A program made the position numbers and the translations under genes. Under the pieces are notes generated by a model that was not told the origin of the DNA, ran no database searches, and saw nothing but the letters and a program-made list of their open reading frames with translations. This document shows, piece after piece, positions 6,262 to 11,189 of a stretch of 23,820 nt of DNA (the stretch's first letter is position 1; each line of letters begins with the position of its first letter). This DNA comes from a virus, in IMG/VR virus record IMGVR_UViG_3300030329_001868, positions 1 through 23,820 of that record, one strand, 5' to 3'.

Positions 6262-6588
6262 ATGACAAACCAATTCCATCTCAACACACGATTTGAGAAC
6301 GGAGGCTTCGACGCTAACCCGTGGTACCTGGCAGTCACCGAACCGGCAGACTCAGGCATCACGGTAACCGTGCAGCACCGTTCCGAAGTCGAGGCACACC
6401 AGTACGCTCCATCACACTGTGACTGGCTCGTGCAGCTCGACACAGATCATGCGATGACTGAGACAATGAAGTTGTGGCTGACAGATAAGGCTCTCCGTAA
6501 GCTGACTGATGCTGCGGCGACACAGTTATGGGAAGCCCCGGTGCCTGCCGTCGCCGGTGAATCTGCATACGAGACTTTTGACGAGTGA
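6262..6588 (+). CDS. Hypothetical early protein
   Basis: 108 aa from ATG 6262, behind AAGGGGGGTC; upstream in-frame ATG at 6064 would overlap the lysozyme-like gene by 145 bp and is rejected. N-terminal half reads as beta strands (PWYLAVTEPADSGITVTVQ), C-terminal half as helices. No recognised family. The stop overlaps the GTG of the nuclease gene, placing it at the head of the recombination cluster. Confidence 0.7.
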   Translation: MTNQFHLNTRFENGGFDANPWYLAVTEPADSGITVTVQHRSEVEAHQYAPSHCDWLVQLDTDHAMTETMKLWLTDKALRKLTDAAATQLWEAPVPAVAGESAYETFDE

Positions 6589-7430
6589 GTAACGTCAACA
6601 TAGCTCGTGCGGCGTGTCTCAAGACACTCCACGAGGAGAGAGATGAAGAAGGGCATCGCCCAACGGCCTTCGGTACGTTGGGTAGAGGGTCGCAGGCAGG
6701 CGGCTGTGACCGTTCCATAGCGTTCGACATGATGAGCGCTGAACCATCAGAAGAAATCTTGGACTCCACGTTGATGGCATTCAAGACCGGCCAACATTTA
6801 CATGAGTTAGTGCAGGCTGCGATGGTGCGGCAATACGACATGGACTGCGAAGTCCCCGTAGACCTCAGATCGTTGGGGTATCCCATCAGTGGACACGCTG
6901 ACGGGGTGTACATCCTTGACGGCTTAACTATCGTCGCAGAAATCAAAACAAAAAAAGCGTACCCAATCAAACTGGCACGCCGCCAACTAATACCAGAGCT
7001 TCACGAAGTGCAGCAGGCCGGAATGTACGCGATGGGTGTAGGAGCGGACGCTATCCACTTGATTTACTACGCCAAAGACAACGCAGGTACAGCTCGCAAG
7101 CCCACTGATTTTGTGGAGGCTGGTGAAACTGTTGAATGGTTGCTGTATCTCGATCAGGAAGTTCCTGGTGATGGCCGCACAGTAGAGCAGGTCGCTTCCG
7201 CAGAAGCCACCCGCATCACCGCTATCGCTGGACAGGTCGAGGATGGGATGATCCCCGAACGATTTGTTCCTGGGTATGGGACGGTGCCTGTGCTTCCCGA
7301 TCCGGGGAGTATGGATGCGCCGTGGCGTTGCCGTTACTGCGACTACTGGGGGCTGTGCGAGACACTCCCCGCTGGTCAGGTGGCTGCGGCTGATGTGTTA
7401 ATACCAATAAGAAAGGATGCAAATGTCTGA
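6585..7430 (+). CDS. Cas4/RecB-like PD-(D/E)XK exonuclease with Fe-S cluster
   Basis: 281 aa, GTG 6585 (GTGA overlap). Nuclease motifs: His71/His73 in GQHLHELVQ, Asp106 in SGHADG, Glu119-x-Lys121 in VAEIKTKK, and Gln144..Tyr148 in QQAGMY, the RecB-type order. C249, C252 and C258 (CRYCDYWGLC) with C41 are the likely four ligands of a Cas4-type Fe-S cluster. Such enzymes resect double-strand ends to feed an annealase, and the next-but-one gene is a Rad52-like annealase. There is no cas1/cas2 or repeat array, so this is phage recombination, not CRISPR adaptation. Confidence 0.85.
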   Translation: MSNVNIARAACLKTLHEERDEEGHRPTAFGTLGRGSQAGGCDRSIAFDMMSAEPSEEILDSTLMAFKTGQHLHELVQAAMVRQYDMDCEVPVDLRSLGYPISGHADGVYILDGLTIVAEIKTKKAYPIKLARRQLIPELHEVQQAGMYAMGVGADAIHLIYYAKDNAGTARKPTDFVEAGETVEWLLYLDQEVPGDGRTVEQVASAEATRITAIAGQVEDGMIPERFVPGYGTVPVLPDPGSMDAPWRCRYCDYWGLCETLPAGQVAAADVLIPIRKDANV

Positions 7431-7656
7431 GACTGAACAGTTAATGACACTCCAAGATGTCGCTGAATATTTGAAGGTGTCTAAAGCCACCTTGTATTCG
7501 TGGCGTTGCAAAAATGAAAACACTGGGCCGACAAGGGGGCCACGATCTATCAAACTTGGTAGGCATGTTCGTTACCGTCGCTCAGATGTTGACGCTTGGC
7601 TACAAGAAAAGGAGGAAACAGATGTCGGATCTGTTGAAACTGTCGAAACCGTTTAG
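7423..7656 (+). CDS. Excisionase-type helix-turn-helix protein
   Basis: 77 aa from ATG 7423, six bases after GAAAGG; an ATG at 7417 touches the ribosome site. Typical MerR/excisionase (HTH_17) layout: LMTLQDVAEYLKVSKATLYSW (about 7-27), then a loop, then IKLGRHVRYRRSDVDAWL (48-65). The family binds DNA and often bends it. No integrase is in the window, so a replication or regulatory role inside the recombination cluster is more likely than excision. Confidence 0.85.
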   Translation: MSETEQLMTLQDVAEYLKVSKATLYSWRCKNENTGPTRGPRSIKLGRHVRYRRSDVDAWLQEKEETDVGSVETVETV

Positions 7657-8056
7657 CCCACGGTTCATTGAAAAGAAAGGTGGGTCGTTTAATGCAGACT
7701 ATGTGTCCCACTCCACAGTAAATGAGTTCCTGTTAGGGATACTCGGGCCGTTTGACTGGCAGCTCGTTCAAGTTCTTCACGAACCTGACGGTGCCATCAG
7801 CGGTGTCGTGTACCGCCTGTCTGTTGAGATAGATGGACGAATGGTGCACGTTGAAGAAGTTGGCTCCATCCAGCAGGGTGGAAACAAAAACAACGGGGAC
7901 CGCATGAAGGACGCAGCTTCAGACAGTTTGAAGCGATGCGCCATGCGACTGGGCCTCGGTTTACACCTCTGGTCGCAAGACAAATACATCTTGCACAGCA
8001 CGTTAGAATCAAAGACCGCCACAAAAAAGGAGACAGATGATGGCGTTAGCGTTTAG
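7622..8056 (+). CDS. Rad52-family single-strand annealing protein
   Basis: 144 aa, ATG 7622 with a near-perfect AGGAGG ribosome site. The C-terminal part MKDAASDSLKRCAMRLGLGLHLW (about 97-119) matches the hallmark of Rad52/Sak-like annealases (K-x2-x-SDxLKRxA..GLGxxLW), preceded by VSHSTVNEFLLGILGPFDWQ and the GSIQQGG segment. It anneals complementary single strands for recombination-dependent replication and works with the exonuclease upstream and SSB downstream. Shorter than classic Rad52 but normal for phage versions. Confidence 0.85.
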   Translation: MSDLLKLSKPFSPRFIEKKGGSFNADYVSHSTVNEFLLGILGPFDWQLVQVLHEPDGAISGVVYRLSVEIDGRMVHVEEVGSIQQGGNKNNGDRMKDAASDSLKRCAMRLGLGLHLWSQDKYILHSTLESKTATKKETDDGVSV

Positions 8057-8441
8057 TGGGAATCTCACTCGTGACCCCGAGTTGAGGTACGGACAGAGCG
8101 GAACCCCGTGGGTCACGTTCACCGTTGCTGAAACACGAGGTCGAGATGACAACAAGAAAACAACTTTCTGGGAATGCAAAGCGTTCGGTGACATGGCCGA
8201 ACACATCGGAGAGTCGTTCGCTAAAGGTCAGCGTGTCATCGTTGACGGCTCCGCTGAGACAGAGCAATGGGAAGATAAGAACAGTGGACAGAAACGATCC
8301 AAGATCGTGGTCACCGCGTGGGATGTAGGCCGCTCAGTGCGATTCGATTCGCTGGTAGCTGACGCTCCTGCCGCAAAGAAAGAAGATGCTCAGGCAGCTA
8401 AGGCTGTGCAGGCAGCGTTCGCAGATGAGGAGCCGTTCTAG
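8037..8441 (+). CDS. ssb: Single-stranded DNA-binding protein
   Basis: 134 aa, ATG 8037 (or the adjacent ATG 8040) behind AGGAG. OB-fold signature: LAFSGNLTRDPELRYGQSGTPWVTFTVAET at the N-terminus, TTFWECKAFGDMAEHI, FAKGQRVIVDGSAE and KIVVTAWDVGRSV. It ends in an acidic ADEEPF tail, like the SSB tail that docks partner proteins. It coats single strands for the annealase and for replication. Overlaps the annealase gene by 20 bp. Confidence 0.95.
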   Translation: MMALAFSGNLTRDPELRYGQSGTPWVTFTVAETRGRDDNKKTTFWECKAFGDMAEHIGESFAKGQRVIVDGSAETEQWEDKNSGQKRSKIVVTAWDVGRSVRFDSLVADAPAAKKEDAQAAKAVQAAFADEEPF

Positions 8442-9260: not shown

Positions 9261-10089
9261 GATTCTTAGCCTGTGCAGCGGCTATGGGGGGCTTGACCTC
9301 GCAGTAGAAGAACACTTTGCAGGTTCGCACACCGCTTACTGGTCAGACATAGACCCGTCAGCGTGCGACATTATGACCGCTCGGTTTCCCGATGCGGAAC
9401 CCGTCGGAGATTTAACCCAATTCGGTGACACAGTTTTTGACTGTGACATCCTGACTGCTGGCTATCCATGCCAGCCTTTTTCCCACGCTGGGAAACGCTT
9501 AGGAGAAAACGATGAACGACACCTCTGGCCCTACATTGCCAACACCATTAGCACATCTCGGCCCAGATGGGTCATCTTGGAGAATGTCGCAGGCCACGTT
9601 AATCTCGGAGGACCAGCCGTTGTTGGAACGCTTACCGAAATGGGGTACAGCGTCCGATGGGGAGTTGTACGAGCTTCCGATGCCGGAGCGCCTCATCAGC
9701 GTAAGCGGCTTTTCATTGTTGCCAACGCCAGTAGTGAACGACATGGGGGACAACAAGACGTTGGACTGGTGGCAGCATTGGATCGAGGAGAAAAGAAGAC
9801 AACACAACAACGGCAACGGTCACGGCAAGAGTTTGAGCATAGAAGTCAGACAAATTTCGGAGAGTACGCCCCCGCTATTAGCCGATGGGAGCACGTTGTT
9901 GGGCGACTCGCACCGCCTCCTGTAGAAGACAACAAACTTTCTGCCAGTTTTGTGGAGTGGATGATGGGACTTGAAAAAAATTGGGTGTGCGGGGTCGTTG
10001 GAAGCAGAGCCAAAGCGTTAAAAGTTTTGGGCAACGGCGTGGTGAAACAGCAGGCACGTTTAGCATTAGAACTGATCTGCGATGAGTGA
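9253..10089 (+). CDS. C5-cytosine DNA methyltransferase
   Basis: 278 aa with the expected motifs in order: I (SLCSGYGGLDLA, 6-17), IV with catalytic Cys73 (AGYPCQPFSHAG), VI with Glu110 (VILENV), VIII (HQRKRLF, about 149-155), IX (LSASFVEWMMG) and X (LGNGVVKQQA). The target-recognition part between VIII and IX is short. No matching restriction enzyme is nearby, so it is an orphan, probably protecting phage DNA from host cleavage. Residues about 87-224 are also read in another frame by a nested ORF. Confidence 0.95.
   Translation: MSKILSLCSGYGGLDLAVEEHFAGSHTAYWSDIDPSACDIMTARFPDAEPVGDLTQFGDTVFDCDILTAGYPCQPFSHAGKRLGENDERHLWPYIANTISTSRPRWVILENVAGHVNLGGPAVVGTLTEMGYSVRWGVVRASDAGAPHQRKRLFIVANASSERHGGQQDVGLVAALDRGEKKTTQQRQRSRQEFEHRSQTNFGEYAPAISRWEHVVGRLAPPPVEDNKLSASFVEWMMGLEKNWVCGVVGSRAKALKVLGNGVVKQQARLALELICDE
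9512..9925 (+). CDS. Nested ORF in a second frame of the cytosine methylase
   Basis: 137 aa in the +1-shifted frame, entirely inside the methylase gene. Its ATG has an excellent ribosome site, AGGAG six bases upstream. Its content looks like protein rather than noise: two LPTP motifs (residues about 9-12 and 70-73), DGSSWRMSQ, a WGTASDGELYELP segment and NNGNGHGKSLSIE. These recall, from memory, a family of actinophage ORFs encoded at or in methylase genes. It might be real dual coding or a conserved by-product of conserved methylase codons. Function unknown. Confidence 0.45.
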   Translation: MNDTSGPTLPTPLAHLGPDGSSWRMSQATLISEDQPLLERLPKWGTASDGELYELPMPERLISVSGFSLLPTPVVNDMGDNKTLDWWQHWIEEKRRQHNNGNGHGKSLSIEVRQISESTPPLLADGSTLLGDSHRLL

Positions 10090-10372: not shown

Positions 10373-10632
10373 GTACCGAATCGCCGTACTGGTTTGACGG
10401 AGCGGCCTGCAAAGGGCTGCTGGCTGGAACGGTGCATGAGCAGATCTGCTGGGAGGAATGCCCGGTACGTGAACAGTGTTTGGCTTACGCTATGGGTGTG
10501 GCTGATTGGATTGGGACTGCGTACATGCCTCATCTGGTGTGGGGTGGGTACAGCGGTTATGCGAGAGAGTTAGCTATGAAAGAGGCCGGTTACAACGTAA
10601 CTAAAGCAGTGAATCTGTTGGAGGGGAAATGA
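10369..10632 (+). CDS. WhiB-like protein with atypical cysteine spacing
   Basis: 87 aa. WFDGAACKG (C14), then C27-x3-C31-x5-C37 and VWGGYSGYAR (57-66): the WhiB plan, but the second pair is C-x3-C where the family normally has C-x2-C, and the basic tail is weak. It may still hold an Fe-S cluster, with altered geometry, or act as a decoy of a host WhiB. Second member of the family here; the canonical one is at 5238. Overlaps on both sides (ATGA). Confidence 0.75.
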   Translation: MSTESPYWFDGAACKGLLAGTVHEQICWEECPVREQCLAYAMGVADWIGTAYMPHLVWGGYSGYARELAMKEAGYNVTKAVNLLEGK

Positions 10633-11189
10633 GTGAGGCTCTAAGGATCGGATACGCCGATCCCCCCTACCCAGGTATGGCCGACCTCTACAAAGACCAC
10701 CCTGATTACGGCGGAGAAGTAGACCACTACGCTTTATTGACACAACTTGTCAACCACTACGACGGTTTTGTTCTTCACACCGCCTCAGTTTCTCTAGGGC
10801 ATGTCGTTGATTGTGCTCGTGCTACAGGGCTAAGAGACAACGACTACCGAATTATGAGCTGGGTCAAACCTTTCGCTGCTTTCAAAGCAAACGTCCCTGT
10901 CGCATACGCTTGGGAACCAGTCTTAGTCAAAGCTGCTCGCAAACCTAAAGTAGATGGCTCTCACCAGATAATGAGAGACTGGTTATCGGAACCCATCACA
11001 ATGAAACGAGGGCTAACTGGGGCTAAACCTCGGAATGTGTGCTGGTGGTTGTTTGAGGTTGTGGGTGCAACTCCTGACGACACTCTCGACGATATGTTCC
11101 CAGGCACCGGGGCAGTTACACGAGCTTGGGATGACTGGCGCAACCTGATTCTTGGCGAACCTGAACAACTGGAGTTACAACATGACTGA
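10629..11189 (+). CDS. DPPY-type DNA methyltransferase (probably N6-adenine)
   Basis: 186 aa, ATG 10629 behind GGAGGGG. The catalytic DPPY box is at 11-14 (GYADPPYPG) and the SAM-binding FPGTG box near the C-terminus (157-161, DDMFPGTGAVTRAW), the catalytic-first order of beta-class amino-methylases. The middle segment GGEVDHYALLTQLVNHYDG and VAYAWEPVLV match what I recall of actinophage methylases of this kind. Orphan, like the C5 enzyme; target site unknown. Confidence 0.85.
   Translation: MSEALRIGYADPPYPGMADLYKDHPDYGGEVDHYALLTQLVNHYDGFVLHTASVSLGHVVDCARATGLRDNDYRIMSWVKPFAAFKANVPVAYAWEPVLVKAARKPKVDGSHQIMRDWLSEPITMKRGLTGAKPRNVCWWLFEVVGATPDDTLDDMFPGTGAVTRAWDDWRNLILGEPEQLELQHD

Follow-up and report, generated by a model that had tools for sequence, protein, structure and literature searches.

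The gene of a C5-cytosine DNA methylase (gene A) in the IMG/VR virus record IMGVR_UViG_3300030329_001868 (23,820 bases, analysed as a whole and called the window below) contains a second gene (gene B) in its +1 frame, and comparison with homologous loci establishes, at the level of sequence, that B is real and selected as a protein and that the DNA is dual-coding. The best explanation, which we regard as probable in the absence of expression, interaction or activity data, is a two-polypeptide C5 methylase of which B would be the second subunit, giving the target-recognition part. This explanation is supported by the selection on B, its fixed frame relative to A, its recurring start and its kinship with the enzyme family, as seen in the sequences.

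Gene A, gene B and the bases they share

Profile searches matched A to PF00145 (E=8e-40, spanning aa 3-164) and PHROG_363 (3.5e-59); its alignment with M.HhaI stops at motif VIII. The chain runs in a single frame from motifs I-VIII through a short linker of about 65 residues to a C-terminal module with motifs IX-X. Motif IV reads PCQ (aa 73-75, upstream of the overlap), motif VI ENV (aa 110-112) and motif VIII QRKRLF (aa 149-154), and A meets the two sequence criteria of a C5 methylase, namely motifs I-VIII with PCQ and ENV, and motifs IX and X, the latter detected by a C-terminal profile in A's own frame (115.5 bits). The overlap with B corresponds to A residues 87-224, so that motifs VI and VIII share bases with B; the initial annotation, which called the methylase frame certain on account of these two motifs, is upheld.

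The neighbouring genes form a replication-type row encoding an ERF-like annealing protein, a single-strand binding protein, a resolvase-like protein and a WhiB-like protein. A recombination module lies upstream of the methylase (6585-8438, + strand), made up of a Cas4-like exonuclease (PHROG_1706/1990), the ERF-like protein and the single-strand binding protein in a row. The product of 10629-11189 (+ strand) has DPPY close to its N-terminus and matches DNA methyltransferase weakly in PHROG (E 0.0076), and is possibly a second, adenine-type methylase adjoining A.

B lies wholly within A, and its ATG at 9512 follows AGGAG (9501-9505) after six bases; the stop is at 9925. It had been described beforehand as a 137-aa nested ORF with an ATG well spaced from AGGAG, which proved correct, and the peptide strings quoted for it (LPTP twice, DGSSWRMSQ, DGELYELP and another) are all present. 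In homologous loci, B's start sits on A's Asn-Asp-Glu codons, as GAT-GA or AAT-GAC, with ATG, GTG or TTG at the usual place in 103/122 loci, 99 of which carry a preceding Shine-Dalgarno (SD)-like 4-mer. The other 19 lack such a codon there although B is conserved (e.g. L072, L081, L092 and L098). Constraint along the overlap is uneven (Table 1): the first part is constrained for both proteins, the second mainly for B, and the last (9847-9925) looks constrained for A only, because A's C-terminal module is conserved there and B's last ~25 residues are not. The earlier claim of 414 bp of true dual coding therefore holds insofar as both frames are constrained, but probably not over its full length, B's final ~25 codons being likely free of B constraint.

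Table 1. Positions of gene A, gene B and their parts within the window.
Feature	Position	Strand	Basis or remark
Gene A, C5-cytosine DNA methylase, 278 aa	9253-10089	+	PF00145, PHROG_363
C-terminal module of A, motifs IX and X	9847-10086	+	C-terminal profile match, 115.5 bits, A's frame
AGGAG, Shine-Dalgarno-like signal of B	9501-9505	+	Within A's Leu-Gly-Glu codons
Gene B, nested ORF, 137 aa	9512-9925	+	+1 frame of A; proposed second subunit
Doubly constrained stretch, B core domain (aa 1-70) over A motifs VI-VIII	9512-9720	+	Synonymous conservation, conserved B columns, frame controls
LPTP cassette of B (LLPTPVVND...NGNGHGKSLSIEV)	9721-9846	+	In A's frame: linker, motif VIII to C-terminal module

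Selection on B and its relatives

To avoid selecting by B, 160 loci were collected through conservation of A's motifs I-VIII only. Of 206 loci, 194 have their best B-domain match in the +1 frame, and just one, the Tsukamurella sputi prophage L170, has it in the frame of A itself. For every locus, 200 resampled versions were generated that preserved A's protein and took their codons from the usage of the gene concerned. Among 190 non-redundant loci, 188 have an open B frame (about 88 codons, over A's motifs VI-VIII), against 50.6 expected, and the refutation named in the initial annotation, stops in homologues, failed. The B score exceeded all 200 resamplings in 142/190 loci, and in 109/152 of those outside the profile set. 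Resampled sequences reach 30-45 bits with the B profile, meaning that A accounts for part of the raw B similarity, and the B score of many Pseudomonadota loci is no higher than that of the resampled sequence. A matched control on 177 loci found the overlap open in its +1 frame in 176 (45.3 expected) and no excess in any of the other four frames, which exceeded expectation by two loci at most; in an upstream stretch of equal length, the +1 frame was open in 76 against 37.8 expected. For the window alone, the probability of 137 open codons with A's protein kept is 0.010 by A's codon usage and 0.0012 by that of the other window genes. Its B-profile score of 117.5 bits compares with a maximum of 79.1 in 5000 resamplings, and a profile built without the window and its close relatives L031 and L011 still gives 91.5 against a maximum of 63.6.

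Codon choice in A bears the same mark. Across 6610 pairs whose A proteins are 40-70% identical, the identity of A's synonymous codons is 1.46 times the expectation in the overlap and 1.14 times upstream, which is the reduced synonymous change that had been put forward as a check. Codon 128 of A is xCC and codon 131 is xGG in 122/122 loci each, the latter always GGG where A has Gly, both being dictated by residues that are invariant in B (P42 and G45, respectively), and Asp87 is GAT, supplying the ATG of B, in 32/41 genes in which GAC makes up at least 80% of the Asp codons. Over the 45 codons after motif VIII, the window and L031 are identical at 38/45 positions in B and 25/45 in A, with 10, 3 and 15 base changes at B codon positions 1, 2 and 3, while over motifs VI-VIII the two proteins are about equally conserved (30 and 36 of 57).

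A tblastn search with the nested protein alone, likewise proposed at the outset, found matches in phages that lie in the +1 frame of methylase genes and are mostly unannotated in that frame; two methylase genes are annotated at the locus in Streptomyces phage Sebastisaurus (34/35) and Mycobacterium phage Pharaoh (79/78). B matches PHROG_1008 (E=1.1e-9, spanning B 1-83), as do all of the 24 B proteins searched, in keeping with the suggestion that it is akin to phage proteins found near methylases, and it is without a match in Pfam or NCBIfam. The B alignments taken whole offered no stretch sufficiently conserved for profile searching. The concern that the LPTP likeness might merely reflect mis-framed methylase entries did not survive the constraint on the B frame, the A codons fixed by B residues and the annotation of the B frame as a separate gene in some phages. 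The overlap recurs among both phages and bacteria, in Actinomycetota, Pseudomonadota, Verrucomicrobiota, a Paenibacillus and cyanophages, and enterobacterial plasmid records show an open B-frame ORF within the annotated methylase, with a weak B match.

B as a putative second subunit

In single-chain C5 methylases, the target-recognition domain lies between motifs VIII and IX. According to the proposed mechanism, one DNA stretch would yield two proteins: A, the catalytic chain with motifs I-VIII plus IX-X, and B, which would be read in the +1 frame from a separate ribosome site within A's NDERHLW codons. As second subunit of A's enzyme, B would stand in trans between motifs VIII and IX, where A has no more than its short linker, and would largely determine the site at which the A-B complex methylates cytosine. 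Translation of B, its function as a subunit, its association with A and its recognition of the site are inferred, as are the methylation target, C5 methylation itself and the need for both chains, there being no assay.

The layouts of motifs IX and X among relatives speak for this mechanism. Both motifs lie in A's frame in 107 loci, the window included; 57 loci, plus 18 partial cases, carry motif IX in B and X in A; both are in B in 15 loci and in a third frame in 3. Relatives' B thus runs on into IX or IX and X, and L170 (1983-3560) encodes a single chain of 526 aa, identical in the viral contig L208, with the order motifs I-VIII, B domain, LPTP array and IX/X, which places B between VIII and IX. 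This chain retains B's three invariant residues; the old +1 frame is interrupted by a stop, and the overlap is not kept. No further fusions other than that of Tsukamurella were found in 299 genomes of the order. The C-terminal part of PHROG_1008 also matches A's IX-X module, and split C5 methylases in nature are active as two chains (PMC3404938). B's apparent membership in the methylase itself, suggested by motif IX or IX and X in relatives and by one fusion, had not been noticed in the initial annotation.

In a tree of A, the layout with IX in B and X in A is scattered over deep parts, whereas the window's layout and that with both motifs in B form one supported group (SH-aLRT 99). The starred branches force at least four changes for the latter layout, and layout labels are far more clustered on the tree than when shuffled. 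As this was a quick tree with a midpoint root, the direction of layout change is not shown. Structure prediction contributes little to the identity of B: the model has a small beta core, with strands between residues 14 and 54 and a block mean pLDDT of ~79-90, and the predicted fold has no match in PDB, so that identity as a recognition domain is not shown by structure. For a protein combining B with IX/X, matches of the predicted fold to DNMT3 were weak (E above 1).

LPTP units such as LPTPTVGNATGTNERRGG or LPTPRATDGTKGGPNQRG are read in the frame of B at some loci and in that of A at others (39 cross-frame pairs at >=75% identity), implying that they are conserved as protein regardless of ORF and suggesting, as far as sequence alone can tell, that they are exchangeable modules, possibly carrying specificity. 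Near-identical cassettes occur in opposite frames between one set of loci (L001, L002, L036, L046, L088, L170, L179, L182 and L214) and another (L004, L005, L008, L019 and L134), as if modules had moved between ORFs. It is conceivable, though we hold this only tentatively, that the B core and exchangeable LPTP cassettes make up a modular target-recognition subunit whose cassettes shift between loci, in the A or B frame; if so, the methylase target could be changed by cassette exchange inside dual-coding DNA.

Motif IX lies in A, not in B, in the window, and A might consequently act alone. There is limited room for the view that B is a genuine protein outside the methylase, for example a DNA-binding regulator or an anti-restriction factor, that arose by overprinting in the methylase gene: the window's B is a free 137-aa protein with neither motif IX nor X, and its fold and families are unmatched in PDB, Pfam and NCBIfam. 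We consider this unlikely in view of the relatives in which the B ORF extends into the C-terminal motifs, the fusion of B into the methylase in L170 and the fixed overlap with the methylase in 194/206 loci. Still less likely, B might be made mainly as a frameshifted product, with the N-terminus of A followed by B, rather than from its own start. The 19/122 loci without ATG, GTG or TTG at the usual place, which also count against the two-subunit explanation, would fit such a product, and the layouts with IX and X in B resemble a frameshifted enzyme; yet the start is kept in 103 loci, nearly always with an SD-like signal. Since B overlaps motifs VI-VIII, a shift into B at or before its start would remove catalytic motifs, and a late shift leaves the constraint on B's N-terminus unexplained.

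That the open B frame is a mere echo of A's conserved protein and codon bias is very improbable. The 30-45 bits reached by resampled sequences and the upstream +1 frame, open twice as often as expected, speak for an echo, but it accounts neither for an excess confined to the +1 frame of the overlap and open in nearly every locus, nor for codons fixed beyond A's need, separately annotated genes and a fusion; chance or A-driven similarity of B is excluded by codon resampling and the frame controls. The least credible candidate is a homing endonuclease hidden in the gene, comparable to the out-of-frame HNH genes that exist within phage methylase genes (PMC11855218) and to the one annotated in the relative Sitar (L214); it is excluded by B's position, as its bases encode A's motifs VI-VIII and B is thus no insertion, and by family searches, in which no HNH domain was matched in Pfam among 24 B proteins.

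Relation to known systems

Long same-strand overlaps within an enzyme core are, to our knowledge, rare outside small viruses. Two-polypeptide C5 methylases are already known; no literature on this overlap in phages or on its recurrence was found, which is weak evidence, most subscription papers lying outside the search, and an out-of-frame HNH insertion in a phage methylase, though different in nature, came closest (PMC11855218). B is unannotated in most of the records inspected despite its recurrence in several phyla, and such phage methylases expressed without it may prove inactive or mis-targeted. The layouts, in which the C-terminal motifs have switched frame several times and a fusion has occurred once in nature, make it testable within one family how overlapping genes are born, split and fuse again.

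PHROG_1008, a phage 'DNA methyltransferase' family, unites the two parts, B matching its positions 61-148 and A's C-terminus 207-315, whereas in the window they are on separate chains in separate frames. A second frame is also used inside an actinophage methylase gene by the out-of-frame HNH insertion known as the ShiLan domain (PMC11855218). That insertion is mobile and nuclease-encoding, whereas the B overlap lies in the enzyme's own motifs, is conserved across phyla and is found in most homologues; B therefore meets neither the criterion of an insertion outside the methylase motifs nor that of an HNH domain in the second frame. Gordonia phage Sitar combines overlapping genes of two kinds in one methylase (361-2070), where an HNH gene annotated in another frame (734-1201, with the note 'delete') lies inside a stretch interrupting the motif VI-VIII region and a B-domain match is present in the +1 frame too.

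M.EcoHK31I beta is read in another frame inside alpha. Two known two-chain systems offer the closest comparison. M.AquI is a two-subunit C5 methylase split in the variable region, the small subunit carrying the distal variable region and IX-X (PMC3404938). It resembles the layout of the 15 relatives with both motifs in B; its criterion of a small chain with motifs IX-X is not met by the window, where B has neither, A itself carries both and the long overlap involves motifs VI-VIII. M.EcoHK31I is a two-polypeptide C5 methylase (YGGCCR) with motifs I-VIII and X on the larger chain and IX on the smaller (PMC3404938), and the same motif layout in overlapping frames is seen in 57 relatives of the window locus. 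The window meets one criterion of this type, a second chain encoded in an overlapping frame, but not another, motif IX on the small chain and X on the large, which those 57 relatives meet; its B lacks any catalytic-domain motif, and motif IX is in A. Our best reading, in which activity is inferred, is that the window's layout works like the M.EcoHK31I type despite failing the motif IX criterion, and represents a new variant of it.
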